Part shown: positions 12,901-32,192 of the stretch, in pieces
Layout of the letters: each line of letters begins with the position of its first letter
How positions within the stretch are numbered: position 1 is the stretch's first letter
From: Cliona cf. orientalis
Lineage: Eukaryota > Porifera > Demospongiae > Clionaida > Clionaidae
Assembly: GCA_963930775.1 (NCBI GenBank)
Contig: OZ005697.1
Location: 1,178,001-1,242,000, forward strand
DNA: 64,000 nucleotides
Direction: 5' to 3'
The notes under the pieces: model-generated
The model's database searches: none
What the model saw: only the letters and a program-made list of their open reading frames with translations
What the model was told of the DNA's origin: nothing
Position numbers and translations under genes: made by a program

Positions 12901-14593
12901 CACCTACGTCCTGTTGCTAGGCAAATGCTGTAGAGGGTGGGGCACGGACGACTCGCTGAACAAACCTAGTGACAGTGCTGGAAGAAAAGAAGAAAGAGGA
13001 GGGATTGAAACAAACCTGAGGAGCCAACTACACAATGACAGTTTTGCATCTCCGGAGATGGCCGATGCACCTAGACCACCAAGACACCGGGTGCATGCTC
13101 CGGATCCGCTTCAGAAGTACAAGAGTGTAGCGGAGTCCAGGAGGCAGCAGATGATCGTAGTACCATATGGGTCACCGCCGAGGGGGGTGAGGAAGGCGAA
13201 TATTGGAGGGAAGTTGGATCTTGGATCGTTTTTGATCGGCGTGGATATCTCACTGAGAGAGGAAGATCCGAATATGACACAAGGGCTGTTTGCTCCTCTC
13301 TCAAACGGTGAGTATGCGAGTTCAAAATAATGGTGAACTATAGGCGTTTGAGAGTTTGAATCCACCTTTATGCATAATAATAATTATACAGATGTTGGAA
13401 TTCGTGTTAATCTGAGCTCAAGCAAGACGTTCATTGATCTGGTCCTGGCTTTGGGGAGAACCCTGCAATTAGCTCGTAAGCATGGCCACTTTCCTTTCGG
13501 AACCGTAGCTGAAGAGGTAAGCAGTAGCTATTAGTATTATAATCTTTCCCCATAAAAATTAATGATATCTTCAATCAATTTTTTATAATAATAATATTAT
13601 TATTATAGGTGGGACTAATTCACGGCCTACCCATCAGATTCTCCTTCTTTCATCATCATGACATCATCCAGCTGACCAATCAGGATCACTTCTACTTTGC
13701 GGAGGCGGCGATTGGAGTGGAAGAAAGGCAGGGACTGGCTCGGTTTGGTACTAACTGCTACCTGACTCCAATCAACAGCAAAATGAACGACAGCTGCCAT
13801 GTTGAGGTAGACCATCAGTAAACTGACTTTGGCAGTATTAGCATGCATCAATCGTGATAAGATTCTGCCTTAAATAGAGTACCGTAAATCTGGAAATTTT
13901 TGTTGTAAAAATATTTTCGTAGTTGATGGCAGCTACGAAAATTGATCTTATGAAAATTAGCATGCACTATTAACGCTAATGCGGTAAGGGGTCGTTCCTA
14001 CGAAAATTTTTTTACACGAAAATTTATCATACGAAAGTTTCTTTACACGAAAATTTCCAGATCTACGGTACTAGTAGCCTAACTACATTCACATTAGAAT
14101 GGAAAGATCTGTAGTACAGTTTGGCTGTTATCATTGCAGATATGAATGGAACTTCAAAGGTAGCCTCATTCCCAGACTGTATACTCCTATAATATAATGT
14201 AGATATTATGTTGAAAAAACTCAGCCTTGGGAATAACGCTACAATCAGTTCAGCTGCTATCAATACAGTCATGAATAATGTTAAGGTCCCATCTAATTAT
14301 AATTATGCTGAACTATCATGACATTGTAGTATCAATAATAATTATTCCACAATAATATTATTGTTTTGCAGCTGTTACTCTGGGAAGGCTATGAGGCCGA
14401 AAACATGGCAGGAGGTCTGCGCTATCAACCGCACATCATCAAAGCTGAACTCATCGAGAGGTTTTCTTCTGAGCTGTTGAGACTAATGGCCGTCGTAGCT
14501 GAGGATCCCTGTGCTCTACTGACAGACATTGCTTCACAGATCCACCCCCCGTTCCTGAGCAGCAGGAAAAGTAAATCAACCAGAAGACCTTAA
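9994..14593 (+). CDS. Large protein with a degenerate condensation-like (HxxxD acyltransferase) domain, 7 exons
   Basis: 1045-residue protein with no name I can assign. Exons: 9994-10626, 10738-11095, 11596-12692, 12803-13307, 13392-13516, 13609-13806, 14372-14593. The first 240 residues are low complexity, basic then Ser/acidic. From about residue 290 the protein follows the fold of NRPS condensation domains: ARVDNIVRAFRIHGPLDKQL then LHPLLSAVF; later HEHILVLSFPRIICDFWSS at about residue 475-495; and near the C-terminus KTFIDLVLALGRTLQLARKH followed by FPFGTVAEE. The catalytic HHxxxDG is represented by PRIICDF: the Asp remains but both His are lost, so acyl transfer activity is doubtful. Long Ser/Gly/Arg-rich inserts interrupt the domain, including SRLRPLTASRNRPVTASR-like repeats. 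Lies head to head with the kinase gene. Domain call is by motif only. Confidence 0.8.
13879..14071. repeat. Inverted-repeat element in intron 6 of the condensation-like gene
   Basis: Begins AGTACCGTAAATCTGGAAAT and ends AAATTTCCAGATCTACGGTACT, a near-perfect inverted terminal repeat of about 20 bp. The interior has ACGAAAATT inverted blocks. No coding potential; a MITE by structure. Confidence 0.7.
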
Positions 14594-14890: not shown

Positions 14891-15934
14891 TTAAATGTAG
14901 AAACCGAGAGTATTTACAGCTAGGTAGTCTGTCGAGCTACCATGGAAGCCATGAATGACTCCGTCAATGGTAGTTACGTTGGCGGTGTACACTTGTCCAA
15001 ACGGTCCGTATGATCTGATAGAACCCTTGGAGTTGGTGGTCACTAACTCGAGATAACCAACGCAGTTTACAGCCTCGCTCCAACGGGGGGAGATATTCAC
15101 GCTTGTAATCCATTCGTCATCGTCAAAGTCGAGAACGTCAAAGTATTTATTCGTAAGCCAATTTTTAGTGTTGAGAGTGCCATGTGTAAGGGAGATGGGC
15201 ACTCCACTGGGTGTCAGATACGTCACTTGGATGGCATTTATGTATACACCGTGGCTAATGACCATGTTAGTGATTTTGAGTGGCTTCTCACCTTTGGCAG
15301 CAATAAGTTCGAAGTCATCAAATTGATCAGTTCCAGGCTTTAGGCCTAAACTAACGTTGATTTTCTGATAGTAGCTGAGTGGTAGGTTGGTGTTAATGTA
15401 GAACCCAATGGAGTCCAGAACATCACCAGTTCGTCCAAAAATACCCCTTATGTCTCCAGTCAGTGAGAACGGAATATCATCAGTACCACCTCGTCCAAAA
15501 GGCTTTCCTCGAAGCTTTGGTGGTCCCCCGTTGAGTGATGTGAATAGAGACAGCTGGCTGATGAAACGCCACTTTATCTGTATCAAACCTTCGACGTGTA
15601 TGAGTGTCTCACCTTCCTTGAAGACAATTTTGCTCATGTTTGAGTCTTTTCCACAGTTGTCTTTTAGTTTACCATGTGGGTACGCAACAAAGGTGCCATT
15701 GTCCTGAAGTTTGTAGACCAGTTGAATACCGTCGACCATATCTCCATAGCAAATGAGCATAACGTGAAGGCCAGCAACTTCTGGAATCAGAGCTGTGGTA
15801 CCATCATCAAATGGGTCACCTCCTAGGGAATTTCCAAAGAGAGGAGAAGCCCGGAGCAGAGGACTGGCTGCAGCCACCTCAGGCAGATGCAGAGAAGCGG
15901 CCAGTATTATCAGAGCAGCTGCAGGTAGTATCAT
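14891..15934 (-). CDS. Secreted double jacalin-like domain lectin 1 (intact, intronless)
   Basis: 347 residues in one exon. A signal peptide (MILPAAALIILAASLHLPEV, cleavage near AAA) is followed by two jacalin-like beta-prism domains, about residues 30-180 and 190-347. Domain 1 begins LFGNSLGGDPFDDG, which resembles the jacalin GG loop region, continues with IQLVYKL and FISQLSLFTS strands, and ends GRTGDVLDSIGFYI, the GxxxD sugar-binding loop pattern of the family. Domain 2 begins FDDFELIAAKGEKPLKITN and ends YLAVNTLGFYI. The family binds mannose- or galactose-type glycans; the ligand here is unknown. No transmembrane segment, so it is probably secreted. It heads a group of four paralogues on this strand. 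Confidence 0.85.
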   Translation of the reverse strand: MILPAAALIILAASLHLPEVAAASPLLRASPLFGNSLGGDPFDDGTTALIPEVAGLHVMLICYGDMVDGIQLVYKLQDNGTFVAYPHGKLKDNCGKDSNMSKIVFKEGETLIHVEGLIQIKWRFISQLSLFTSLNGGPPKLRGKPFGRGGTDDIPFSLTGDIRGIFGRTGDVLDSIGFYINTNLPLSYYQKINVSLGLKPGTDQFDDFELIAAKGEKPLKITNMVISHGVYINAIQVTYLTPSGVPISLTHGTLNTKNWLTNKYFDVLDFDDDEWITSVNISPRWSEAVNCVGYLELVTTNSKGSIRSYGPFGQVYTANVTTIDGVIHGFHGSSTDYLAVNTLGFYI

Positions 15935-16224
15935 TTTTCTCTAGGTGTAAGAGCAACAGGTCCCTTCAGTGTCAACAACAGCAACAAACGTCTTTGATAA
16001 ATTTGCACAGTGTAAATTATGTGAAACTGCGCACGTGTACGTGCGCTGCTAGTGCTGCGCAGGCCAGCCCCTCCCCCTCGCGATCTCGTGAGGAGGTGGG
16101 GCTGATTAGTGATGCGATCTACGTGCTAACAAAAACGCTCAATTAATTAATATAGATTGCCCATGGCCACAGAATAGTAACAGCTATACTCGGTATAGGC
16201 ATCTATTCAATGTTAGTTAGAATC
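15935..16224. other. Spacer between lectin 1 and lectin 2
   Basis: This must hold the promoter of lectin 1 and the 3' UTR of lectin 2. A GC-rich patch with ACGTGTACGTGCGC lies near 16030-16045. No gene or repeat recognised. Confidence 0.5.
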
Positions 16225-17234
16225 TTAGGTATAGAAACCAATAGCATTTATGCTGTCGTTACCGACACGACCGTAGAGACCATAAATGACTCCCTCGACA
16301 TACATTCTTCCGTAACATGGTTGGATGCCAAATGGTCCATATGACTTCACAGCACCCTTGGAGTTGGTCGTCCCTATTCCAAGACAGAGCACACCCAGAA
16401 CAGGGGAAACAGCAGGATCACTGATAGCAAAGGTCACTTCTGTTATCCATTCGTCAGTCTCTAAATTAATACCTGATGTATTTATTGCCACAGGTGCACC
16501 ATGTGTTACATTGATATGTGCTCCTCTGGAGACCATATAGGTCACTTTGATACCACTTATGAGTTTATTATTATGGTTAATGACCATGTTTGTGATCTGG
16601 ATGAAAGGTTTTTGAAGTCGTCAAAGACGATTCCACCATCTGTTCCTGAAAAGAGGGCAGTTTTATTGTAGCCACTGAATGGCAACATATAAAAGCCTAG
16701 TGCATTCAGAACATCACCGCTTCGTCCAAAAATTCCCCTTATGTTGCCAGTAAGTGAGAATGGTAGACCAGAAATACGTCCAGTAGCCCCACCTCGAAAT
16801 GCTGGCGGTCGTCCACCGACTGAAGTGAACAGTCGCAGCTGACTGACGTATCTCCATCTTTCATTCATGTCTGCCAGACCTTCAATGTGCACCAGTCTCT
16901 CATCTTCCTCGAAAACAATTTTACTCATTGTCAAGCCTTTGCTAATACTGCAGTTATTGTCTATTGTACCATGTGGGGACGCAGGAAAGGTGTCGTTATT
17001 TTCAAGTATGTAAACCACTTGAATGCCAAAAATCCAATCTCCGTAGCAAAGGAGCATAGAATGAAGGCGAGTAACTTGTGAAATCACAGCTCCAGTACCG
17101 TCATCAAATGGGACACCTCCTGTGGGGTTTCCATAGAGAGGAGAAGCAAGTAATTTATCGGCAGCTGCAGTTGTCTTGCAGGGCAGAGGAAGAAATAATG
17201 TCACTGTAGCTAACAACACAGCAGATAGCATCAT
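16225..17234 (-). pseudogene. Double jacalin-like lectin 2, interrupted by a frameshift
   Basis: The upstream part (from 17234) encodes a signal peptide (MMLSAVLLATVTLFLPLPCK), a complete first jacalin-like domain ending GRSGDVLNALGFYM, and the start of domain 2 (GGIVFDDF). The frame then shifts near 16609-16613, at a run of five A on the coding strand. Compared with the intact paralogues, a few codons between FDDF and the KPF block are missing. The rest of domain 2 stays open in a second frame, through INHNNKLISGIKVTYMV to VGNDSINAIGFYT and a stop at 16225. No splice sites bridge the break. Either a young pseudogene or a sequence error at a homopolymer; both halves are otherwise free of stops. 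Confidence 0.7.
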
Positions 17235-18156
17235 CCCCTTCTAGTTGCAAGAGTGACCATCTTACAGTGTTATGTAGCTACACTAATTATTAATAAACTT
17301 AATTACTGTACGTAGCTCTCTTTGTTGACTTTTGCTATAATACATAATACTGCTCCACAGAGGGTGCCGAATAAAGTGGCAAAATGATATTCATTTAGAG
17401 TGTTTGAATGCAGCAAGTTTAGCATGCCAGCCCCTCCCCCTTTTTGGAAAGAATTCACAGTTTAGTATGTGAAATACGATTGGGATTGGAATGAGGCTAA
17501 TATATATAATATGATCTGCTATGAGAAAAGGGGCCACTTGGTGAAGATGCATGGATATATATATAAATTGAAATCACGACAATATCTAACCAGCTTTCTA
17601 CGAATGTATATAGCTATCAGTATATGTGATCGTATTAGTGTATGGACATGAACACAGCTAAAGCAGATTACACGTGATGGTACATTATCATGTATATATA
17701 CCGTAATTTTTTTTTACATCCCTAGTAGCAATTTACTTTTCTGAAACAAGCAATACTTGCCCAGTAACACTGGCGTAAGAACCAGGGGGGCTGGGGGGGC
17801 AATTGCCCCCCCAGTCATAAGATTGGGGGGGGCAGAGCCCCTCTGATTTTTAGACTGCTGTACAAACCAGGAGGTGGGGCTCACCCCGAAAATGCACTAG
17901 AAAAGCTCTCAGAAGGTCTAAAACTCCAAAATTTTCCTGGGGGAGCATGCCCCCAGACCCCCCTCCCCCAGCTTTCGTGCACTATGCGCGCGTAAAGCGA
18001 GTCTTCACCTGCTTACTTTCAGCCCCCCTGCTCAAAAACATCTTTCTACGCCACTGAGTAAGGATATCAAATTGTGAAATTTCTGGGTGAATATGGAAAC
18101 CTCCATGATTTTAGAGCCCCTAGGCCTATAATAATACTATGATCACAACATAAATA
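17235..18156. other. Repeat-rich spacer upstream of lectin 2
   Basis: Holds the lectin 2 promoter side. At 17511-17545 there is TGATCTGCTATGAGAAAAGG, an end of the TGTGACCTGCTATGAGAAAAG element family. A separate element occupies 17771-18058. No gene found. Confidence 0.6.
17771..18058. mobile_element. Inverted-repeat element with CACTGGCGTAAGAA-type ends, copy 1
   Basis: Left end ACACTGGCGTAAGAACCAGG, right end ACATCTTTCTACGCCACTGAG. The interior is rich in runs of G and C (GGGGGGCTGGGGGGGC and later AGCCCCCCTGCTC). A second copy with the same ends and the same G/C blocks is at 40788-41047. Non-coding; MITE-like. Confidence 0.75.
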
Positions 18157-18276
18157 CAGTGGAACCCCGCTTAGCGGACACCCCTCAACGGCGGACACCT
18201 GCGATATAACGGACAATTCTGAATGTCCGGATTGTATTTCCATAGACTTTAATACATTCACCCCGCTATTTATTAC

Positions 18277-19170
18277 CCCGCGCGCATGCGCAAGGGGTAA
18301 AGCAATCGGTTTGTCCGTCTGTCGTCGTCGTCGTTGTTACCCCGCGCGCATGCGCAAGGGGTAAAGTGATCGGTTGTGTCTGTTGTTAGCACAAAAATCG
18401 CCGGATCTGGAGATCTAGGCATCTGAGCGACTCGTAAATATAGTATATCCGTAGATATCGTCGAAAAACTGGCTTCATTATGCTTCGAATCGTTTGGCAA
18501 GGTCCACAAGCATCGTAAATGCTGCATTTTGTTGGCCACGCCTATGGACACTACCCACCATGTGCTTTCTGCTCATGCGCACAACTTGGCACAATATGTA
18601 GGTAAAGGTCGTCGACACTGCAGCGCGCGGGGTATGTGCTCTATAGAGCTTTAGATCATAGCTGTAATGAATACTGCAATTTGATTGGCTACTGACAGGT
18701 ATCTATATCTCATAGTCACCTACAAGCTTCTCATAGTGGATTCTATATAGAGTCCTTCGGTCTTCTAAATCACATAGAAACCTCCTAAACAGTGTCTAAC
18801 TATTATCTAGTTGTTGTTGTCGTCGGCAAGAAAATCGCCAGATCTCGAGTTCTAGGCGTCTGTGCGTGCTGTAAGCACAGCCAATCGGTAGGTATCGATG
18901 AAAAACTAGTGTGTACGCGCTTATAATTTCTCAAAAAGGCTTGCTAGTGCTAAAAATCGTACATTTTCTGTTCAACATACTTGTGGTTTATCGACCACAC
19001 CCACTGTTTTAGCATAATAGTATGCGGATACGACTGCGCATGCTCAAACACTGTGTTGGAAAGGGTCGTCACGTCATGAAACAGCTACATACAGGTATAC
19101 GCCTTGGAGTGTTGCAATACTACGCTACAGTGGCTACAGAGCGCGCGGGGTATGTGCTCTACAGAGCTCT
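18277..19170. repeat. Cluster of ACCCCGCGCGCATGCGC / GCGCGCGGGGT repeats
   Basis: Two directly repeated left ends (TTACCCCGCGCGCATGCGCA at about 18277 and 18336) and two inverted right ends (GCGCGCGGGGTATGTGCTCT at about 18622 and 19141) suggest two nested or tandem copies of one inverted-repeat element. Between them lies TTAGATCATAGCTGTAATGA and a half of the GTTTCTATGTGATTTAGAAG hairpin family (about 18690-18800), also present near 26526 and 32650. Confidence 0.65.
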
Positions 19171-19189
19171 AGTTTATTTATTTATTTAT

Positions 19190-19884
19190 ATTTATAACAA
19201 TTTCTGTGCAATAAATGACAGAGGTTAACGTGAGTAGCTGAAATTGTAGCTAATACAGGCACGCAACCAGATATAGTATGAGGTAGATAAACAGGTATAA
19301 TAAGACTAATAAGTTTATGATAAACGAGATTTAAAACAGGGAAGGGAAAGTGAAGATAGCACATAGTGTGGTAGGGAATTCCACTGAGCAATAGTCCCAG
19401 GAAAGAAAGAATGCTGGAATTGAGCTGTCCTGCAGTGAATGTCTTGCAGTTGCTGGACGTGAGAATGCCTGCTACTGTACCGGATGACCTTAAAATGGAG
19501 AGGAGGATCCGGATAGACAATCATATTGTTGACCAACTTGAACAAGTGGCAGAGACTAGCATTAGTACGCCTGGCTGAAAGAGGGGGAACATTACTTTGA
19601 TTGTAGAGTTGGTCATGGCTAGCTGACCAGTTCTTTAAACAAACTCTTAAAGCAAATCTTTGAACCTTTTCCAATGCCTCAATATCACAGACTAGATAGG
19701 GGTTCCATACAACAGAGCAGTATTCTAGATGAGGTCGAATAAATGATTTATAAAGTTGCAGCAGAGTGGACGATGCAGCATGCTTATAGAAGCGTCGATA
19801 TTCCGTATAACGGACACTTATTTTGGTCCGGTTCGAGCCTGCGCAATAGTGAACAACCTCGCATAACGGACAGTTAGGCCACAC
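19190..19884 (-). mobile_element. 3' fragment of a non-LTR retrotransposon reverse transcriptase
   Basis: The coding strand is minus. The readable part encodes LYKSFIRPHLEYCSVVWNPY followed by ALEKVQRFALRVC, the typical segment after the reverse transcriptase catalytic core in LINE elements of Jockey/CR1/RTE type, and then a C-terminal tail with FFPGTIAQWNSLP. The catalytic core itself is absent, so this is a 5'-truncated dead copy. It lies inside the pogo-like element. Confidence 0.8.
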
Positions 19885-20144
19885 CCACCATTAAAATCGG
19901 TCGGTTTCAGCGACCAGTAACTACAGTAAAGCCGAAATATGTCTCATATTCTTGCTTAGAAGCTGTCAGCTGACAGATCTCTCATCAATATGGTCTTCAT
20001 CGTCGTCCACAGTAGTGCTTTATCATAGCTGGCCGCGATTGTAGGAGGGGCGTGGTCAACCACTAACCCCTGAGCTAAGGACACCTCGCTACAACGGACA
20101 AAATTTTTGGTCCCAATGCTGTCCGCTTTAGAGGAGTTCCACTG

Positions 20145-20651
20145 TATACCGTAAAGTTAGTGAATGTAATGTAAACCTAACGGTTATGACAAAGAAAGAA
20201 TCCTGTCCGCTACTGCTTGTGTACATGTAACTGGCCGTGTTATCGTGATTGTAGCGCGTTGGGAGGGGCCTGGGGACGAGGCTAGTAGAAGGGATACTAC
20301 AACAAACCGGTCCAGGGCTATGGCAGACATAAAATTAAACATGAAAGAAATTTAATGAGGACATGCATAATTTACTATTACTGTTACAGTGTAAGCATGA
20401 ATCACTGTTTATAATAATACACATCACTTTTGTCTCGCGCGCGCGCAGTAGTTGTTGGCCACGCCTATTAACCGCGTGCTTTCTGCTCGTGTGCATAAGA
20501 AGAACCCCTTGATCCGTAGCGCCAGGTTTCACTCACGTACATTCCTCACGGTCACTACACCGTGAATGAAATAGGCTATTGACTCTGTGTTTCTTTTCAA
20601 GTCAGTGCCACGTCGGAACAATTCAGCAATAGCTAGCTAGTCAGGGACGCC
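20145..20651 (+). promoter_or_regulatory. Upstream region of glycosyltransferase-like gene 1
   Basis: About 500 bp between the pogo-like element and the start codon. Contains GTCTCGCGCGCGCGCAGTAG near 20431 and GGCCACGCC motifs. No coding potential recognised. Confidence 0.4.
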
Positions 20652-21881
20652 ATGTTGCAGCTAAGTAGAGCAACAAAGTCGGCGCTCACTACAGCGCTTC
20701 TGCTACCGGTTCTGATTCTCGTAGTAATACCAGCAATCCATCGACACAGCTACGGCGGCTCGAAATCGAAACAAGAGTCAGTGTCCAAATCTCAGCTCGC
20801 ATCTCGATCTTATGACCCAAGACCCGTGCCCATGACTGTGTACACTGAGGAAAGCCGCAATATTGAGTTCTCCGACATGGCCTCTACTCGACAGCAATCG
20901 CGGCCGGATCAAGCTGGAATGAATACACTCGTGGTCTACGCTGGACGCTGGAAATTCCTAAGGATCCTTTTTCCATACGTTTACAGAGAACTGAGACAAA
21001 ACGGAGGCGTTCTGGACAGAGTTTGGTTCATGATGGTAAACTATGACAAGGAAACGCACGATAATCTAGTGCAATTGACCCAAATTACCAACAAAAACTT
21101 GAATCAGTCTGAGGAGGTTTTCCAGCTACATTTCTTAGGGTACCCTCCTGGAAAACAACCTCCCAGGAATATTGGATACACCGCTCCTTATTATGAAATG
21201 TTTGCCGAATTGATGCAGAAAAGTTCTAATCGGTACTTCAAGATAGACGATGATATAGTCTACATACATCCCGCAACATTCAAGAGCATAGTTGAGCGCA
21301 AAAACTCGCAACAATGTTTCTTACACTCTGCAAATATTGTAACAAATTGGCGGTGCAATATCAAACATCAAGATCTGGGAGTTTATAAGACCAGTAAAGA
21401 GGTGAACCCTAAGAATTTAACGTTTGAATTTCATCCAAATGGAAATTGTGGATGGAAATCACCCGAGTGTGCCGAACTGACTTTGAGAACGTTTCTGCAC
21501 TACTATCACAAAGGGCAGTTGGACAAATACCAATTTGAGGGGCTTGAGCTACTGAATCAGAGAAAGCGTTTCTCTATCAATTTTTTCTTATTCGACAAAG
21601 ACATGATCAACATCAAATCGATGCTTGAGGCTGGTCCAATTGAGAAAGATGACGAGAACTGGTGGTCGAGAACTTACGCTGGAAAATTCAAGCAGCCTAA
21701 CTGCATTGTGGGTGGTGGACTGGCTGTACACTTTTCCTACTTCCCGACATATCAGAAGATGTTGAAGTCTGGTCTACTGAGAGAGTTTGAGGCAATTGTT
21801 CAAAAGGAAGTGGGATCACTGATGGGGAAGGAGTTGTGGAGAGCTCTCAAGTTTCCCGAGGTTCATAATAAGATACTATAG
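20652..21881 (+). CDS. Type II membrane glycosyltransferase-like protein 1 (intronless)
   Basis: 409 residues. One hydrophobic segment near the N-terminus (TTALLLPVLILVVIPAI, about residues 13-30) suggests a Golgi-type signal anchor. The catalytic-like region starts at NTLVVYAGRWKFLRILFPYV and contains RYFKIDDDIVYIHPATF, with a DDD motif like the metal-binding DXD of GT-A glycosyltransferases, then NCGWKSPECAELTLRTFLHY and NCIVGGGLAVHFSYFPTYQK. Proteins with this DDDIVYI/FI pattern are known to me only as uncharacterised; donor and acceptor are unknown. A paralogue is at 31074-32192, and both follow a pair of lectin genes on the opposite strand. The transferase role is inference. Confidence 0.8.
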   Translation: MLQLSRATKSALTTALLLPVLILVVIPAIHRHSYGGSKSKQESVSKSQLASRSYDPRPVPMTVYTEESRNIEFSDMASTRQQSRPDQAGMNTLVVYAGRWKFLRILFPYVYRELRQNGGVLDRVWFMMVNYDKETHDNLVQLTQITNKNLNQSEEVFQLHFLGYPPGKQPPRNIGYTAPYYEMFAELMQKSSNRYFKIDDDIVYIHPATFKSIVERKNSQQCFLHSANIVTNWRCNIKHQDLGVYKTSKEVNPKNLTFEFHPNGNCGWKSPECAELTLRTFLHYYHKGQLDKYQFEGLELLNQRKRFSINFFLFDKDMINIKSMLEAGPIEKDDENWWSRTYAGKFKQPNCIVGGGLAVHFSYFPTYQKMLKSGLLREFEAIVQKEVGSLMGKELWRALKFPEVHNKIL

Positions 21882-22042
21882 ACTTGTCAGTATCAGTAAT
21901 AATACAATGTGACTGCTATCACAATAAATAATTTAATTGTAGTAGATATCCGTACTATTTTTTATGGTGCATGCACCTAGGGTCAAGTAATTACTCCCAT
22001 GCATGTGAATGCCATGCATGGGTATGACTATATATATAACTA

Positions 22043-22265
22043 CCGTATCTGATCTAATTAATGCGCCTCTCTAATAGATGCGCCACCTCGGCCTGAAGTG
22101 CAATTTTCACGCTCTATTTAAATGCGCCCACCCACGCGTCCCTATGCTTTTGTGTACAAATTTTGCGCGCCACCTGGTCGCGAAGGATAATTTTCAGGCT
22201 CTAATGGCGCGCCACCCAGCACTCGTAATTATTATTTCATGGCGCGTTAATTAGATCGGATACGA
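22043..22265. mobile_element. Inverted-repeat element with TACCGTATCTGATCTAATTA ends, copy 1
   Basis: Left end TACCGTATCTGATCTAATTA then ATGCGCC; right end GCGCGTTAATTAGATCGGATACG. The interior holds several TGCGCCACC blocks. A second copy with the same ends is at 58547-58672. Non-coding, MITE-like. Confidence 0.75.
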
Positions 22266-22289
22266 TAATTATTGTATCCTAATGCAGTA

Positions 22290-23710
22290 GATTTACATGT
22301 ACAGGGTTCCACTGGGGATCAAAGCAGAACAAAGCTTAGCTACCCCTGTCCTAAACAGGATATTATGCTGATACTATATAATAATTGTATTTCTGTATGC
22401 CCTTCACTATGTACTCTTTTGTCAATTAGAGCAATACCACCCTAGCTATCCTCTGCCTAATCTAATCTACATCATCATCCAGAAAGCTGCTAAACCGTGG
22501 GCCTGCAGGTTGATCCTCTGTCCTTGATCCCCCCTCTCCCCTCCCCAAGTGAATTGAAATTAAATTGCCTGACTACACTACCAGGTGACATGTACAACTG
22601 TACATGTCACCTGGTAGTGTAGTCAGGCAATTTATACATGTCACCTGGTAGTGTAGTCAGGCAAGTGAATTGAAATTAAATTGCCTGACTACACTACCAG
22701 GTGACATGTACAGTTGTACATGTCAACTGTACATGTCACCTGGTATACAACTGTACATGTCACCTGGTAGTGTAGTCAGGCAATTTATACATGTCACCTG
22801 GTAGTGTAGTCAGGCAATTTAATTTCAATTCACTTGGGGAGGGGAGAGGGGCTAGTAAGGGGTGCACGTTCAGTTAACTGAACGTGCACCCTCTCTGCTC
22901 CCTTACTAGCCTAGCTGCATATCTATTATTATTATTATGATTATGGCTTTCCCGCAAATTAGAATCCTATAGAAAGAAGAATCCTGTTGAGTATAGGTAA
23001 CATTCCAAGGATATTATAACCTGCAGGAATACAATGTAGTACAATATGTCATGTAGCTATTAGCTATACTATTATATCACATGTCTGCCTTAATAGCACA
23101 TGCATGCCATGCACATGGAGAGCACGATCGTGGGTACTATGGCTAATTATGTATCCTGTCAGTCAGGAATTAGGGTACATATACAGGGTTAACGTTCTCT
23201 CTGTCTACTGGGGATCAAGGTACTAGGAGGAAGGTTAGCTACCCCTGCCCTAAACATGCAGGATCAAGGATATTATGCTGATAATAATTTTCTGTACGCC
23301 CTCCTGTGAGCTATACTCCTTGCCAATTAGAACAACAGTACCAACCCTATCCTCTGTCTATAATAACTACCTAATTAATCTAATCCACAATGTCACACAG
23401 AAACCTGCTAAACATGGGCCCAGGTCCCTCCCCCTCCCCCCCAAGTGAATAAAAAAAAATTGTCTACTAGCTACACTGTGTATCAAACTGCAGTTGAGCT
23501 GCCATAGTGATACGGTGATCATATCTCAAAAATGTCCCACTTGCGCGCAGGACTGCATGGATGGCAGAGTGCACCCTCTCAGTTTACCAGCTGCATTGCC
23601 AATAATGGCCTCCCCCACAAGTTATTGATAGCTAGAATCCTATTGTAATATTCCAGGGGCTATAGGAATAGCTACCTTAGTACCACATGCCATGCACATG
23701 GAGGGCACTA
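22290..23710 (+). repeat. Diverged direct duplication of about 0.5-0.9 kb
   Basis: A block from about 22300 (ACAGGGTTCCACTGGGGATC, GCTTAGCTACCCCTGTCCTA, GGATATTATGCTGAT) recurs from about 23186 in the same order (ACAGGGTTAACG, TACTGGGGATCAAGG, GGTTAGCTACCCCTGCCCTA, GGATATTATGCTGAT, CAAGTGAAT). ATGCCATGCACATGGAG occurs in both units, near 23107 and 23688. The first unit is enlarged by the palindrome. Confidence 0.65.
22530..22913. repeat. Large palindrome built from TGCCTGACTACACTACCAGG units
   Basis: The left arm from about 22530 (CTCCCCTCCCCAAGTGAATT, then GAAATTAAATTGCCTGACTA) is mirrored by the right arm ending near 22850 (AATTTCAATTCACTTGGGGA, then GGGGAGAGG). Between them the unit TGCCTGACTACACTACCAGG plus TGACATGTAC occurs several times in both orientations. 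A second perfect 32-bp palindrome centred on GTTAAC follows at 22860-22891, flanked by inverted GCTAGTAAGG / CCTTACTAGC. Strong potential for cruciform structure. Confidence 0.85.
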
Positions 23711-26525
23711 ACAGTGGCAGTGAGGTCTTGTACGTACTATAGCTATATATACAGCACAGCTAAACATTAGGCTGGTGCTTTCCCCCATCACAGCACTGCA
23801 CTTGTTACCTAGGTAACTAGTGACAGAATATTCCCATTATAGTCTCAAACAGGTTCATGTTAGTGTACACAGTGACACTGTGGGCAACATGCTCAATGAA
23901 AAAGAATGTAAAAGAATAGGTACTAAGTCAGTTATATGGCAGCCACGTACTGTCTTATGCTGGTCCAAAGACAGATGCCTGCCATAATATTATAACTATA
24001 ACTTGTTGGCCATCACCTAGCAACGTTAAGCAAAATTCTTATAGGGCAAATTGCCGGCTACCAGAGGGATATGGGTGATCACAGGGTCTAGGTCATGGCT
24101 AATTGATGACGAGCGGGGGTCATGGGACAATTAACAAAATTAGTTTAAGTAATTGCAAGACCTTAATTGGGGTGCATTCCACCATGCATCCAAATTCAGG
24201 TCTTACAACGTATTAATACTCATTGATATCCGATATATACATACAGTCAATGCATGAATATTGAATTCTTGTGATCCCATAATAATATAGCATTTTGGCT
24301 ACGATTGTCAGTTGTAAACTTTCGATCAGTTTGGTCCACACATATGCTAAAAATCAGAACAGAAAACCACTACAAGGGACATTGCTAGGGTATCGCTTGT
24401 ACATGCATGATGACTTAGCACTAGATGAATGAATCTGCATGGGTCATGCACATGCATGTACTACAATACTTCGAAGAAAGAGAAAACTTACACAGCAAGT
24501 GCCAAAATGCACATGAATAGTATAATATGTAGTCACAGCATTCCTTGTGGGTATAATTTTATAGTGTATGGGTAGTATACACATGTACACCACTTGCTGT
24601 GAACTAGAGGTTTAGCTTAAGCTTGTAGGGGTGCATTAACCAGATTACAATGTTAGCACTAAGGTACATAAGTTGTCCTGTAGATAGACAATGCATGTTA
24701 AGTAGGGCATTAACAATCCAGCCAGAAATTATTATTATTATAATAATTATTATATTGCCTGGGCAGGTACGCTTTGTCTATGTTAAGTTCGGTATAGGCT
24801 ACAACATCAAAGTACATTAGAACTGCTTTGCAGCAGTAATAAAAAACCATTATCATAGGACAATTTGAATATTACAGACCTAGCTATCTAAACCAGGAGT
24901 GTTTATGTTAGCTATGCATACAATCAAAGTATGCTCATCAAACACATTGTTAGCTTGAGATGGTTGATCGATAGTTGAATTAAAGTTACATAATATGATA
25001 ATATTGGGAACTATATAGTGCTTCTCTTTCACGGGTACAGGTAGCTACAGACATGTACAGATATGAGTCATGAACATATGCATGGAACGTGCTTGGTTCC
25101 TGCAGTAGCTATATCCAATACAACAATAATTATGTGGTCGACTGTATTGGGTTTCTCTTCACTTTGTTCTGTGACTATATAGCTCTACACGGATACTCCC
25201 CCCCCCCCCCCCCCCCACTGCATACATACATGTGTAGCTAACAGCTGCTTTCATGACTGACCTTGACCTTTTGCCATACCACACAATGCAAGTAGTGTAC
25301 CACAATTAATATAACTGCTGAGTGGCCACTATCTAGAGGGAGTAGCTATAGCTAGGTCTTGCTACGTGCAGTCTCTCAGTCTGGTATGCAAGGAAATTAA
25401 GGGCGTGGCCTCCTCTAAAAAGGCGGGCGGGGGGGGGGGGGGGGGACAGCTCCCCTTGTCTATTTATATTAAGCAAGCTCAAGTGTGGTGGCACTAGAAT
25501 TTTAAATACCTTAGGGCTACGATTATTTACGGGAACAAATTAATCTTAGCGGATTTTGGAAATAGTGCGTTTAGCGGGTACTCAATCATTTTAGCGATTT
25601 TTCAAAATTAGCATTCTATTAATTTTATTCAAAATTGTTGAAAATTTTAATATGCATCCGCGGGTAAAAATATTAGCAAAAAGGGCAAATCGCTAATTCA
25701 TTAATTTGCATGGTGTATGCATCCTAGCAACGGTATTTTATTAACGCATTACTGTTTATGTGTTTATAAAGTGTAAGGGCAAGTGTAGATGTGCCGTACG
25801 TTGCTAGGATTGGATGTACACACCAAATGAAAATGTGATACCCCAGAAGTTAACGTTTTTGTTAAGTTGTAAGATCTCTCAAATTAAGACAACCAGTTTA
25901 TATTATAGAGCACAGACACATAGTAGCACATCAATGCATGCAGCAGCAATAATAAAACTAGCCTAGCGACCAGAGTAATTATTCACAAGTACATGTAAAA
26001 GACTTAGTAATTACATAACACACAAGTGGCATTACTTGACATGGTAACTGTTACTCAGACAAGCATGCATACTTGCTTGCTCGCTTGCATAATAATATTA
26101 TCATGAGATGCAAACTCTTGTGAGCATAATAATAATAATTATTATTATTATGTTGAATTGCACTATATTGTGCATGTTAACAATAACCCTGCAAGCTAGC
26201 TATTATAGCTAGCTAGCCTAGTGATGAAGCAGAGTAACCAGGGAATTAATCAGCAGACTCATATTGTCATACCTCTGTTGCCATAATGTTTAGCTAGTTC
26301 CATCAGTGTTTAATGGAACATGGAGCTAGCTGGCTTCAGGTACTATAATATATTATATATATGGCCTTCACGGGAGACTGCATGGCTGCATATGTAACCG
26401 CTATATATAATAATATTATTATTTTTGCATGATCCCGATTACGTTACATTGTTTTGCATGGTATCGCATTTCTTTTGAGTGCCTAGCTACGGCTCGTACT
26501 AGCTGTACATACAATGATATGCATG

Positions 26526-26830
26526 ACTATATATTAGTTAGACACTGTTTAGGAGGTTTCTATGTGATTTAGAAGACCGAAGGACTCTATATAGAATCCC
26601 GAGCGAAGCGAGGGTTCTATGAGAGCCCTGAGGTCTTCTAAATCACATAGAAACCGACTAAACAGTGTCTAACAAGTTTAGATCATATAGTTTTGTATTG
26701 CTAAGAGCCAGAGGGCAAACTTGTAGGTGACTATGAAAATCTTGTAGGTGACTATGAGATATAGATACCTGTCAGTAGCCAATCAAATTGCAGTATTCAT
26801 TACAGCTATGATCTAAGAGCCAGATAGACA
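26526..26830. mobile_element. Hairpin element with TTAGACACTGTTTAGGAGG ends
   Basis: TTAGACACTGTTTAGGAGGT and TTCTATGTGATTTAGAAGAC are mirrored by GTCTTCTAAATCACATAGAA and CTAAACAGTGTCTAAC within about 150 bp, around a short loop containing CCGAGCGAAGCGAGGG. Related copies are near 18690-18800 (half) and 32648-32770. The right flank (GACTATGAGATATAGATACC, then TTACAGCTATGATCTA) also occurs inverted near 18649-18720. Confidence 0.75.
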
Positions 26831-27067
26831 CCAGTTAATTGCATGGTACTCGTGCGGGGCACTCTCTATGCCGTATCGGATATCCTAGCTATACCATAGT
26901 ATACACACAACATTATAGTAATTATTATTATAAGTACATGTAAAGAACATTGCTTTCTCGTGGTTGTGTGGTTACAATAGTACTACAGTTGTGTCGTACA
27001 TAGTATACCTGAACACACGGTATAGGCCCTGATCCATGTCACACTACATGATCAATACATAAATACC

Positions 27068-27230
27068 GTAGGTCGGGTTTTAATTGTGAGTATCTATTAA
27101 TTGCGAATTGCGAGTTTTTCTACGTTTCGCAATTAATAGATTCGCAAACATGAATGTGCACGTATACTACAGTACGGTACGGGGTCGTCCATCGCAATTA
27201 TAGGATTCGCAATTTGGCCTGACTTGACTA
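27068..27230. repeat. AT-rich inverted repeat with TCGCAATTAATAGATTCGC blocks
   Basis: Begins TACCGTAGGTCGGGTTTTAA and contains CTATTAATTGCGAATTGCGA facing TTCGCAATTAATAGATTCGC, and later ATCGCAATTATAGGATTCGC. Looks like another small inverted-repeat element; borders uncertain. Confidence 0.5.
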
Positions 27231-27243
27231 GAATGCAATTATT

Positions 27244-28015
27244 AACGCTCGGCGCATGCGCACGAGCGTTACAGTACTCAGTTTGTCTGTCTGTTACCAC
27301 TCTACGGCGTGCGTAAGGTATTTATGAATAAAATTGAACGTACCAGCCAATTTTGCGCCGAACTCCAAAGGTTTTCAACTAAGGGATTTCGTTAAAAAGC
27401 TTTCTCTCACGAGTTATAGCTTATTCTTCGTTTTAGCATACCAAAGTCAGCCATTTTTCAGTTCCCAGTGTCGTAAACTATAGCTAAGTCCACTTCGTAT
27501 ACTACTTGTATAGCCCTAGCGCATGTGCGTTAGTCTATTAATAGCACTAGGTTAAATTTAGCTCCATTTGCCAAGAGCTTACGTAACCAAGTCTGTAGTG
27601 TGGTTTGTATGCGTAAACAGCTAGCTATAAGCTACATGTAGCTACAACCACTGCTGTAAACCAGGTCTGTAGTGTGGATGTGGTTGGTTTGATATGTATG
27701 TGTGCACACAGCCAGCTGGCTGCAGCCACAGCCACTGCTTGCTGCACTCCTGATTGGGAACACCAAAGGCTTACAAGCCCTTGGGAAAACCTTGTTGCTT
27801 TGCAGAATACATGCATGCTTTCTCATTGGACAATCACTTCACATGACAAGGGAATATAAGCGCCAGATACTTAATTCAAACTAAAACTTTTCACAATGTA
27901 TGCAGGGTGATGGTTCCAAATAAACAATTGAATAATTTTCCTAGGGTACCTCCTATTATGTTTGTATATGGAAACCATGCACCAGATCATGGAGATGCTC
28001 TACCGCCGAGCGTTT
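27244..28015. mobile_element. Inverted-repeat element with AACGCTCGGCGC ends, related to the 2121 copy
   Basis: Left end TAACGCTCGGCGCATGCGCA, right end CCGCCGAGCGTT, followed by GGCACCAATGGTGTTCATTA as in the copy in XAB2 intron 6. The body is non-coding and contains a duplicated CAGGTCTGTAGTGTGG / AAGTCTGTAGTGTGG block near 27590-27680. Confidence 0.65.
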
Positions 28016-28335
28016 GGCACCAATGGTGTTCATTAAACTATGCAATTAAAACCCGTCCTACGGTATACATACCACTGTACAAGGCTTTGTAGCTCCTATA
28101 TTTCACATGCACCCAGGTCCCTATGCACAGAAAGGTGCTTTTTTTCACTACTGCGTACATCTTTGCATGTTTTGGTGTACATATTGATTAAACTTATCGG
28201 TGTAATTATTGACACAAGGGGACATGGATTTTGATATACAGCAATTAAAACTCGAAGGCTGAATAATAATAATTAGCAAATCATAAACAAAATTTATGGG
28301 ATTCGTAGCTGTCTCAGCTGCTGCACAGCTAGCCG

Positions 28336-29347
28336 CTAAACATAGAAACCGAGAGCATCAAGCTGGTTGCCACAGCGACCAAAGAAGCCATACACCACAC
28401 CGTGAACAGTAGTCACATTTCCCATGAATACTTTTCCAAACGGTCCATATAGCCTGACCGAGCCTTCGGAATCTGTCGTCTCCATTTGAAGATAGTCAAC
28501 AACATGGCTTGGACCTGAAGAAATGTCTACTCGAGTTATCCACTCATCCTTATCGAAGTCGAGAACGCCATCATACTGAAAGTTATCCCGACTCAGCACT
28601 CCATGTAGGACGGTAGATATAGCTCCACTTGGTAACAAATATGTAACTTGGATACCGTTTATCACTGAGCCATAGTTGATGAGAATATTTGTAATCTTAA
28701 ACGGTTTTTCATTACCGAAGAGAAAATCGTCAAAACCATCGCCCCCTTCCCCACCAACCAGATCGGTCTTCTTGTACGATGCTCTAGGGGTTGCCACTAC
28801 AGGATTTGGGTCGATGTAAAGTCCTAGAGCATCCAAGACTTGACCAGCTCGTCCAAAAACTCCAATAGCAGTACCAGTTATAGAAAACGGTTTATCGGAG
28901 TCACCCCCCAGGCCAAATGGCCCATAAGTGGAGGGTAAGCCCCCGATCATTGCTGTGAAGAGAGTCAACTGACTGATGTAGCCATAAGTGACCTGAGTCT
29001 TGCCCTCGATGTGCACGATAGTTTCCCCTTCTTTAAATTCAATACGCTTCTTGGTACACTTTACAGTGACTCCTCCGCCGTGTGAAAACCCGATAAAAGT
29101 CTTTCCATCCTCCAGTGTGTAGTTGACCTGTAGCCCATCAACGGCATCTCCATAGCAGACACTGAGAGAGGCAATTCGTACGATGCGTGGAACTATAGCA
29201 GTGATGCCATCGATCGTCGAATGGGTCACCTCCTCCGGGAGATCCAAAGAGTGGGGAAGCATATAGTTCATGATGTTCCTCCCTACCCTGACCTGCTTTG
29301 AGACAGTGAAAAGCCACTATCAAGAGAGAAAGTACTGTTTTATCCAT
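28336..29347 (-). pseudogene. Double jacalin-like lectin 3, interrupted by a 4-bp tandem duplication
   Basis: The coding strand starts at 29347 with a signal peptide (MDKTVLSLLIVAFHCLKAGQ) and reaches LFGSPGGGDPFDD, the conserved start of domain 1. A duplicated ATCG/CGAT at about 29209-29216 then shifts the frame. After the shift both domains are fully open to the stop at 28336 in the second frame (GITAIVPRIVRIASLSVCYG through GQVLDALGLYI, then domain 2 ending NQLDALGFYV). An internal Met at 29271 in that frame would give a protein without signal peptide. No intron fits. Either a very young pseudogene, an allele, or an assembly error. Confidence 0.7.
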
Positions 29348-29809
29348 TGTTTATATTGCTATGTCAGCGTAGTAGACTGTGTACAATAAAAAATATTATG
29401 AATTTTAAAGATATTGATCACGCGACGGAATACAATTGAATTCAATGGTGTTTTGAAGAAATTCATAGTTTGTAAAATTTGTTGTTGCTGCTGCATGACA
29501 CTGTACGTAACAAATTTGACATAGCTAGCTGATTTAACTGCAGAATGAATTGGAATGCATTCCTCAAAATGACGCCTAAATAATATAAATTCATATTACC
29601 TCCCATATTGTCTCGCGTGCGAGACTAGACTACCCATTAGCTACCCTGTATGTCTGACTCTTTGTGATTTCTGTGACTGGTCATGCAATATGACTATAGG
29701 GCAGCACCCTACTCTTGCTTTTGACACATCATATATAGGCTGTTTCTCAGTTGAACATTATTATAGCTAATAATGAGCAGCTCCAATCCATAACTACAAG
29801 TTATAAGTT
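29348..29809. other. Spacer between lectin 3 and lectin 4
   Basis: About 460 bp, AT-rich. Must contain the lectin 3 promoter and the lectin 4 3' UTR. GTCTCGCGTGCGAGAC (29611-29626) is a perfect short palindrome. Nothing else recognised. Confidence 0.5.
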
Positions 29810-30817
29810 TCAAGTGTAAAAGCCAAGCCCAGTGAGTGCAGTGACACTGTGATCCGTGCCCACTCGTCCATAGAAACCGTACACCGTTCCATGTACTGTA
29901 GTGATATTCGATTGGGGCACATCACCAAATGGTCCGTATACTCTCCTCACACCTCTCAAGTCCAGCGTTGAAAACACGAGATAGTTCACAAATAACGAAA
30001 AGATTGCCAAATCAGTCTGCACTATCCTTTCACCGGGATTGCTAAATCTGATTGCATCATTGCGGCTATTATTAGAATTTAGCAGTCCATGAGAAGCAAT
30101 GAAGAGTGTTCTGTTTGGAAACTGATAGGTAATCGCGAGTCCAAAGATGTATGCACCCGAGTTTATGGTAATGTTCAGCATTTCAGCTTGACCTACAGAC
30201 AGCGCGGGATAATCGTCAAACACAAGCCCAAATATTCCCCCTATCATTTCGGTGCGGTTGTAGGTGGGAGTCTCCAGTGGATTTACGTAGGCACCAAATG
30301 CATTGAGGTATTTGCCACTTCTTCCGAATAGTCCGGTGATGGAGCCTGATAAGGTGAAGGGGATATTACAGATGCCTGCGTCTCCAAAAGGTCCATACAC
30401 CTTAAGACTTCCCTTTGAATTGCTTGTATAGAGCTTAAGCATGGTGATGAAGCCATACGTCGGTTCAAGTGTTCCTGTGATACGTTGAATTCGCTCGTCA
30501 TTATGAAATTGCAAGACAGTTGAATTCATTCCGGCAAAATGTTGGTCTATCATTCCGTGAATGTCCCCAGAAAATTTCCCACCATTTTCAAGCAGGTATG
30601 TAGCCTGGATACCAAACACGAAAGGTCCATAAGCAATGCTCAGAGACTGCAGTCCGGCAACAGGTGGCGTGACTGTTATGGTGCCATCATCAAATTGTTT
30701 GCCCAGCTCAGAGGAACCAAAGAGTGGAGATTGAGCTGATGTGATAGAGTCACCCAGCACTGCACGATGGTGTAGGTGTAGGGTAGTGAGCACCACGAAA
30801 AGTGTTCCAGATAGCAT
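29810..30817 (-). CDS. Secreted double jacalin-like domain lectin 4 (intact, intronless)
   Basis: 335 residues, one exon. A signal peptide (MLSGTLFVVLTTLHLHHRAV) is followed by two jacalin-like domains. Domain 1 starts LFGSSELGKQFDDG and ends GRSGKYLNAFGAYV; domain 2 starts GLVFDDYPALSVGQAEMLNI and ends VTALTGLGFYT. The GxxxD loop of domain 1 reads GKYLNAFG, with Asp replaced by Asn, so its sugar preference may differ from lectin 1. Predicted to be secreted. Starts 256 bp from the divergent transferase-like gene 2, so the two probably share a promoter region. Confidence 0.85.
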   Translation of the reverse strand: MLSGTLFVVLTTLHLHHRAVLGDSITSAQSPLFGSSELGKQFDDGTITVTPPVAGLQSLSIAYGPFVFGIQATYLLENGGKFSGDIHGMIDQHFAGMNSTVLQFHNDERIQRITGTLEPTYGFITMLKLYTSNSKGSLKVYGPFGDAGICNIPFTLSGSITGLFGRSGKYLNAFGAYVNPLETPTYNRTEMIGGIFGLVFDDYPALSVGQAEMLNITINSGAYIFGLAITYQFPNRTLFIASHGLLNSNNSRNDAIRFSNPGERIVQTDLAIFSLFVNYLVFSTLDLRGVRRVYGPFGDVPQSNITTVHGTVYGFYGRVGTDHSVTALTGLGFYT

Positions 30818-31073
30818 TTATAGTTCTTCAATTGCATGCGAGCCGCGCCGCCACTCGAGCATAGTTTTGAGGTCAGAGGTCGGATTTAATCACGTTCTGA
30901 GCATGCGCAATAGATTTTTCGAGACGACATCCGGATCGCGGCTTCACGTTACACGCACGCGTACGGGTACGGTGCGAAAATACTTATTGTGCCGTCATGC
31001 TGTGCAAATTTATAAGAAGTTACACCATCATACATTATCCAGCCAGGGAGCAATCTCTGATTGACTTACCACG
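30818..31073. promoter_or_regulatory. Bidirectional promoter between lectin 4 and transferase-like gene 2
   Basis: 256 bp between divergent starts. Contains GAGCATGCGCAATAG near 30898 (NRF1-like GCATGCGC core) and GC-rich ACGCACGCGTACGGGTACGG near 30953. No TATA box evident upstream of either start. Confidence 0.5.
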
Positions 31074-32192
31074 ATGCAGTATCGACCGAGAAAATCAGCA
31101 CTACTCGTAACGATTGTCGTACCGGTTGGAGTTCTACTGGTACTGTTCACCATCCGCTATCAGTATCTCGTCGTTCACAAACTTGGCGCTGCCGATCCGC
31201 CTGTATTCGTCTGTAATTTGTCGCACTCGCCCAGTATCGACAGCTGGGATGGGTCCAACACGCTTCTCGTCTACGCTGGACGCTGGAAATTCCTAAGGAT
31301 CCTCTTTCCATACGTTTACAGAGAACTGAGACAAAACGGAGGCGTCCTGGACAGAGTTTGGTTCATGATGATAAACTATGACAAAGAAACGCTAGACAAT
31401 TTGTCACATCTGACAAAAGTGGCAAACGCACTTTTAAAGCGGGACGTTTTCGAGATGCACTTTATGGGAGGCAATCCAGGCACGCTACTGCCGGATATAA
31501 AGCGGTATCCAGCCCCTTACTATGAAATTTTCGCCGAACTGGTGCAAGATACCTCCCACAGGTACTTCAAGATCGATGATGATATTGTTTACATACACCG
31601 AGGTACATTCAAGAGCATGCTCGATGCTAAGAATTCTCGCTGCTGTCTGTTGCATTTTGCGAATATCATATCCAACTGGAGATGTAACATTAAACACCAA
31701 GAATTGGGTGCTTACGAAAGTGAGGAAGTTAATCCCAAGAAATTAAAATTCGGTTTTCATCCGAATGCCGAGTGTGGTTGGAAGTCCAAGGAGTGTGCGG
31801 AGCTCACTTTGAGGACATTTTTGCACCACTATCATCGAGGACAGCTAGAAAAGTACCAATTCAGTGGCGTCGAGTTGCTCCAGAAAAGAAAACGCTTTTC
31901 CATAAATCTATTCATGCTGGACAAAGATGTGATTGACATCAAGGCGATGCTCGAAATAGGAAAAATTTATTCGGACGATGAGCAATGGTGGACGGTGACT
32001 TATGCCGGGAAATTTAAGCAGCCCAACTGCATTGTGGGCGGCGGACTAGTGGTACATTTTTCTTATTTTCCGACATACAAGGAAATGTTGAAATCGGGCC
32101 TGCTGAGAGAATTTGAGGCAATTGTTCAAAAAGAAGTGGGAACACTGATGGAGGAGAAACTATGGAGAACTTTGAACTACTCAGGAAGGTAG
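31074..32192 (+). CDS. Type II membrane glycosyltransferase-like protein 2 (intronless)
   Basis: 372 residues, paralogue of the gene at 20652. An N-terminal anchor (ALLVTIVVPVGVLLVLFTI, about residues 9-27) is followed by NTLLVYAGRWKFLRILFPYV, RYFKIDDDIVYIHRGTFKSM, NAECGWKSKECAELTLRTFL and NCIVGGGLVVHFSYFPTYKE. The stem between anchor and domain is about 30 residues shorter than in copy 1. All motif residues of the DDD site are kept. Substrates unknown; a Golgi role in glycan synthesis is inferred from topology and the DXD-like motif. Confidence 0.8.
   Translation: MQYRPRKSALLVTIVVPVGVLLVLFTIRYQYLVVHKLGAADPPVFVCNLSHSPSIDSWDGSNTLLVYAGRWKFLRILFPYVYRELRQNGGVLDRVWFMMINYDKETLDNLSHLTKVANALLKRDVFEMHFMGGNPGTLLPDIKRYPAPYYEIFAELVQDTSHRYFKIDDDIVYIHRGTFKSMLDAKNSRCCLLHFANIISNWRCNIKHQELGAYESEEVNPKKLKFGFHPNAECGWKSKECAELTLRTFLHHYHRGQLEKYQFSGVELLQKRKRFSINLFMLDKDVIDIKAMLEIGKIYSDDEQWWTVTYAGKFKQPNCIVGGGLVVHFSYFPTYKEMLKSGLLREFEAIVQKEVGTLMEEKLWRTLNYSGR

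Follow-up and report, generated by a model that had tools for sequence, protein, structure and literature searches.

The window analysed here, a 64,000-nucleotide stretch of the Cliona cf. orientalis genome (contig C9, positions 1178001-1242000; the genome comprises 217 Mb in 149 contigs), contains four loci for double-jacalin lectins (L1–L4) and two genes of a glycosyltransferase-like family (T1 and T2). We consider it reasonably probable that these are members of two separate secretory-pathway gene families, which were locally multiplied and then interleaved as neighbours. A preliminary description of the window had instead taken the order lectin–lectin–transferase, which occurs twice, for a duplicated cassette linking a glycan reader to a glycan writer. 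The coordinates confirmed all six genes at their positions and on their strands, as well as the double occurrence of this order; neither the duplication of the cassette nor the functional link held up in the gene trees and in the genome-wide comparison. Under the reading that we favour, the transferases (T1, T2 and three further copies, of which T3 lies about 40 kb beyond T1/T2, and T4 and T5 lie on contig C6) would be type II membrane glycosyltransferases, each encoded by a single frame and having a GT-A fold; most likely they reside in the Golgi and, aided by a metal that the DDD motif binds, would take a sugar from a nucleotide-sugar donor and attach it to secreted or surface glycans. The lectins would be secreted products of stepwise duplication, with L4 branching first, then L3 and then L1/L2; the probable targets of the intact ones are extracellular glycans, either of microbes or of the animal's own matrix, and no functional link to the transferases would be involved. 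Collagen, NACHT and TRAF-type zinc-finger frames are present in the genome and are compatible with an animal. As the genome-wide jacalin and transferase scans scored the best candidates only, the counts obtained from them are lower bounds.

Within the locus, the transferases are of greater interest than the lectins. T1 (20652..21881, + strand, 409 amino acids) and T2 (31074..32192, + strand, 372 amino acids) are open single frames that contain the motif KIDDDIVYI and have one strong N-terminal hydrophobic segment, with a 15-residue Kyte–Doolittle mean of about 3.0; in five of five genes the hydropathy maximum, calculated over the same length, is 2.8–3.1 and falls within the first 45 residues, and the model of T2 has a helix at residues 7-36. 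T1–T5 are accordingly described here as putative type II proteins with a single N-terminal membrane anchor. The earlier transferase-like assignment was upheld and much strengthened by significant matches to the phage glycosyltransferase family phrog_4447 (T1, E 3.2e-5; T2, E 0.0015; T3, E 0.0027), by a structure model of T2 with a predicted local distance difference test score (pLDDT) of 87.3, for which the highest PDB rows were mostly GT-A enzymes, and by the residues DDD168-170, E303 and H328 (T2 numbering), which are present in 59 of 59 aligned rows. These rows (alignment A3) are the five genes T1–T5 and 54 viral sequences; 83 viral relatives were found in all, from which 80 loci were kept, 61 were extracted and 54 were aligned, the remainder being near-duplicates, partial or omitted without test. 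An earlier model calculated from five rows was poor (pLDDT 45.7) and was not used. The family is thus modelled as a GT-A fold with a DxD-type metal motif and predicted to consist of glycosyltransferases, and the ratio of nonsynonymous to synonymous rates, 0.16 for the pair T1/T3 and 0.19 for the pair T4/T5, corresponds to purifying selection.

A sequence-only PDB search with T2 returned nothing credible, and T2 alone as a viral query found two weak loci; the best PDB match of the 59-row profile was heparosan synthase (E 0.055), the alignment covering the DDD motif of that enzyme. The GT31 Galactosyl_T family was touched by eight of the 59 members, with a best E of 7.8e-4, T2 having no match of its own there. 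A cyanophage relative is located among genes for GT11, GT25 and a thymidylyltransferase. As a separate observation, the viral contig IMGVR_UViG_3300038393_003162 (L051) contains, at 39-2663 and 1.3 kb from the closest viral relative of the transferases, an 874-residue frame which may encode a TnpB/Cas12-type nuclease.

The assignment of the lectins to the jacalin family was likewise upheld, and two jacalin domains were confirmed at four of four loci. L1 (14891..15934, − strand) is an intact gene for a lectin of 347 amino acids, matched by PF01419 over two stretches (E 1e-28), and L4 (29810..30817, − strand) is an intact gene for one of 335 amino acids; each claimed cassette therefore has one intact lectin, L1 in the first and L4 in the second. 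Against a Pfam cut-off of 22 bits, the jacalin domains scored 100.9 (L1), 53.8 (first domain of L2), 116 (L3) and 89.8 (L4). Seven of the eight domains in the window were among the 32 rows of the genome-wide scan, and the second domain of L4 was found in the searches of the window and of fetched stretches. L2 and L3 are not intact single-frame genes in this assembly. In L2 (about 16225..17234, − strand), the signal-like start and the first domain share one frame (16560-17234) that ends at a stop after the first domain, and the second domain lies in another frame (16228-16620), which remains open. In L3 (about 28336..29347, − strand), the signal-like start and the first conserved stretch (29213-29347) are followed in another frame by the remainder (28339-29316). 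On our reading of the sequence neither break is accounted for by an intron, because conserved residues reach close to the break on both sides; the frame changes hold for this assembly and may be fixed mutations, alleles or assembly errors. The signal peptides proposed earlier are matched by hydrophobic signal-like starts in L1, L2 and L4 (15-residue means of 2.5, 2.4 and 1.7, respectively), but the corresponding stretch of L3 (mean 1.9) is out of frame with its domains.

In mannose-type jacalin lectins the ligand is held by a GXXXD motif, and in ZG16p, according to the part of the source consulted, a change of Asp to Asn lowers mannose binding and raises heparin binding (PMC4059138). Judged on domain tails and on the alignment, near the end of each domain, the aspartate of this motif is kept in three of the eight domains of the window, namely the first domain of L1 (GDVLD) and both domains of L3 (GQVLD and GNQLD). 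It is replaced by Asn in the first domains of L2 and L4, and the motif is missing in the second domains of L1, L2 and L4. L4 is the lectin best suited as a candidate partner for a transferase, but with the aspartate absent from both of its domains it would be less likely than L1, the other intact lectin, to bind mannose; another ligand is possible. Adjacent to this group, a 451-residue frame at 11565-12917 (+ strand) has a sub-threshold match to the condensation domain PF00668 (E 3.6e-6, 26.4 bits versus 30.6), and on our reading of the sequence the gene may continue as far as about 14594, which would leave some 300 bp between it and the end of L1.

Duplication of a block predicts the pairings L1+L3, L2+L4 and T1+T2. 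The tree of seven double-domain lectins has the topology (((L1,L2),L3),L4), with L3 as the sister of L1+L2 (support 95/95), and in approximately unbiased (AU) tests of alternative pairings L1+L3 (p 0.018), L2+L4 (p 0.0038) and L3+L4 (p 0.033) were rejected; the clade of all four window lectins is supported at 80/85 only. A tree of single domains, calculated from 28 jacalin segments of at least 95 residues (from 36), was known before the AU tests, and the pairings tested were those predicted by the duplicated cassette; in this tree the first domains of L1 and L2 pair (99/96). Block duplication as a lectin–lectin–transferase unit was rejected on these tests. Segmental duplication with common flanks was rejected as well, as non-coding similarity between the two copies is absent apart from repeats: the coding regions of the transferases align at 73% over 916 bp and the lectins over short stretches, and beyond these only repeats match. 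Synonymous sites are saturated between T1 and T2, and T1 and T3 differ by 1.83 synonymous substitutions per synonymous site (dS), so the transferases are old, separate copies. Elsewhere in the jacalin family, C8:3321035-3343914 (loci L123-L125) holds tandem frames with single jacalin domains, four of them full and one a fragment, which form a clade separate from the double-jacalin genes.

The association of lectin and transferase was seen at one place in the genome. Three of the five transferases (T3, T4 and T5) have no jacalin neighbour in their fetched surroundings: no jacalin domain was found around T3 (C9:1242001-1266000), for which the nearest are the window lectins about 41 kb away, or around T4/T5 (C6:7044001-7067000), and none lies on C6 among the genome matches listed. 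Conversely, none of the three intact double-jacalin genes outside the window (two on C15 and one on C2) has a T-type gene in its fetched surroundings (0/3), and none was among the genome-wide matches listed for C15 or C2; the five-gene profile recovers only T1–T5 in the window and the fetched stretches. Of ten long frames near the lectins on C15 and C2, none was a glycosyltransferase; they matched retroelements, collagen or PMP repeats, or had no Pfam match. Two further two-domain jacalin loci, on C10, are partial or split. The surroundings themselves contain other features: at C2:3096280-3112601 (L025-L027) the intact double-jacalin gene is surrounded by three genes with collagen repeats, each a single frame and on its strand, and about 14 kb beyond T3 there is a NACHT-domain frame at C9:1265025-1265999 (L016 8025-8999; PF05729, E 4.3e-23).

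The apparent absence of introns, which had been set against intron-rich neighbours, seems hardly to distinguish the six genes. The flanks do contain exon-like pieces of adenylate kinase and arfaptin genes, but the window also holds a 539-residue single-frame kelch gene, two arrays on C16 hold eleven peptidase-C1 domains in open frames that are each about 300 residues long, and many frames of at least 200 residues occur in the 292,509 bases of the window and of the fetched, partly overlapping, stretches. Since long single frames are ordinary in this genome, the intronless state is uninformative. The two arrays (C16:190354-197654 and 4848102-4863163) encode cathepsin-type peptidases in single frames, with six and five full domains, respectively; the three peptidase-C1 stretches examined, of 116 matches, all have the cathepsin-type GSCW cysteine, so that silicatein, looked for in them as a marker of sponges, was not found.

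Several observations weigh against two families that multiplied separately. Long branches (L4 and D15a) are flagged in the tree used for the AU tests of the lectins; L1 and L3 group as sisters in the tree of second domains (92/83); T1 and T2 are, weakly, closest to each other (85/87); and T4 and T5 have no PHROG match at E 0.1. Furthermore, the starts of L4 and T2 are divergent and only 256 bp apart, and naive uniform placement gives a chance adjacency of 0.0008 to 0.0035 for distances of 0.3 to 10 kb, for a pair that was chosen post hoc.

The conflict between the trees of the first and second domains therefore leaves room for an old partial block duplication, in which an L3-like lectin was copied together with a transferase, L1 and L2 split later, and L4 was retained or lost beside one copy. 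The position of L3 as sister to L1+L2, that of T2 beside T1 and the pairing of the second domains of L1 and L3 would fit this course of events. Non-coding sequence is not common to the copies, although saturation would have removed any such trace; neither T1+T3 (p 0.13) nor T2+T3 (p 0.11) was rejected; and an additional gain and loss would be required. We regard this explanation as unlikely, if still credible.

A further proposal concerns the origin of the transferase and is compatible with the other readings: the gene may have been gained horizontally from a bacterium or phage, with the signal anchor added later. Relatives at 18-28% identity occur in phage and viral contigs, five of five copies are single frames, and transfers into the genome of a sponge (Amphimedon) have been reported in the part of the literature consulted (PMC4784904). 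Against this, a long branch separates the five genes from the 54 viral rows, none of which is nested with T1–T5; single-frame genes are common in this genome; and the comparison covered viral and prokaryotic collections, so that vertical descent is possible. A prokaryotic source was rejected after two scans of the contigs of a prokaryote genome collection, pattern scans of limited reach, in which 0/76 and 0/58 candidate stretches were confirmed as relatives. Such a transfer appears rather improbable to us.

Developed further, the coupling proposed in the preliminary description would make a Golgi glycosyltransferase and a secreted lectin partners under a common bidirectional promoter, both working on the same glycan in self-recognition, aggregation or symbiont recognition. 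The divergent starts of L4 and T2, the recurrence of the gene order with T1 and the low naive chance of adjacency would agree with this, as would the finding in the choanoflagellate Salpingoeca rosetta, from the part of the report consulted, that loss of either of two predicted glycosyltransferases, one of them Jumble, abolishes basal jacalin staining and causes clumping (PMC6322860). The jacalin used there is a plant reagent and not a gene product of the organism. Of the divergent head-to-head pairing, only the compact half stands: L4 and T2 face each other across 30818..31073, but L2 and T1 are separated by 3,417 bp (17235..20651) with a dispersed repeat at 18651-18811, of which the genome contains at least 131 matching pieces (40 of 1542 candidates scored), and L2 is broken. 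A scan for bacterial-type promoters, uninformative for animal DNA, gave no match in the 256 bp between L4 and T2. Only for this pair would the sharing of a promoter be conceivable. With the loss of the aspartate from both domains of L4, and with the linkage missing for three of five transferases and three of three other intact double-jacalin genes, we judge the module to be quite improbable. Least likely of all, and held to be only a faint prospect, is that T1–T5 are the animal counterpart of Jumble, a pre-animal Golgi enzyme whose surface or matrix glycan the neighbouring, co-regulated jacalin lectins would read in this lineage, the whole forming an ancient system of adhesion or recognition. 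The homologues of Jumble reported in 2018 were from choanoflagellates and fungi and, in the part of that report consulted, none was from animals (PMC6322860).

If the coupled unit were real, an early-branching animal would offer the writer and the reader of a glycan as one ready-made module, but the tests made here argue against such a duplicated, coupled unit. The lasting value of the locus lies in a GT-A-type family without a Pfam model, with five copies in an apparent animal genome and distant phage relatives, and it raises the question of whether Jumble, which choanoflagellates require for orderly multicellular development, has its missing animal relative in this family. A literature search, for which most subscription journals were outside the coverage, showed among the titles listed none on jacalin-lectin genes of sponges, and in the part of a review of sponge lectins that was consulted (PMC4557014) the word 'jacalin' occurs once, in a pearl oyster reference.

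Comparing the locus with known systems, the lectins resemble the jacalin-related lectins (PF01419; plant Parkia, banana and Heltuba lectins and animal ZG16p), with a domain above the Pfam cut-off at all four loci; the best PDB match was a jacalin-type lectin for L1 (E 2.2e-5) and the jacalin-type Parkia lectin for L3 (E 9.1e-16). Unlike these lectins, those of the window combine a signal-like segment and, following it, two domains within one protein. The likeness of the transferases to GT-A glycosyltransferases (COLGALT1 of GT25, Mnn9, MGAT2 and SpsA) is that of the fold of the T2 model, the match to COLGALT1 being by fold only, whereas the likeness to the phage glycosyltransferases of PHROG 4447 is a significant sequence match for T1, T2 and T3, and also for two of the viral relatives, L031 and gp354 of cyanophage B23; in contrast to the phage proteins, the animal copies bear an N-terminal membrane anchor. 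Jumble of S. rosetta has, in the part of the report consulted, a single exon, one transmembrane segment and no Pfam domain, and is a glycosyltransferase by structure prediction (PMC6322860); the T family, likened to it by description only, resembles it in its single frame, its single membrane segment, its lack of a Pfam model and its predicted glycosyltransferase character.

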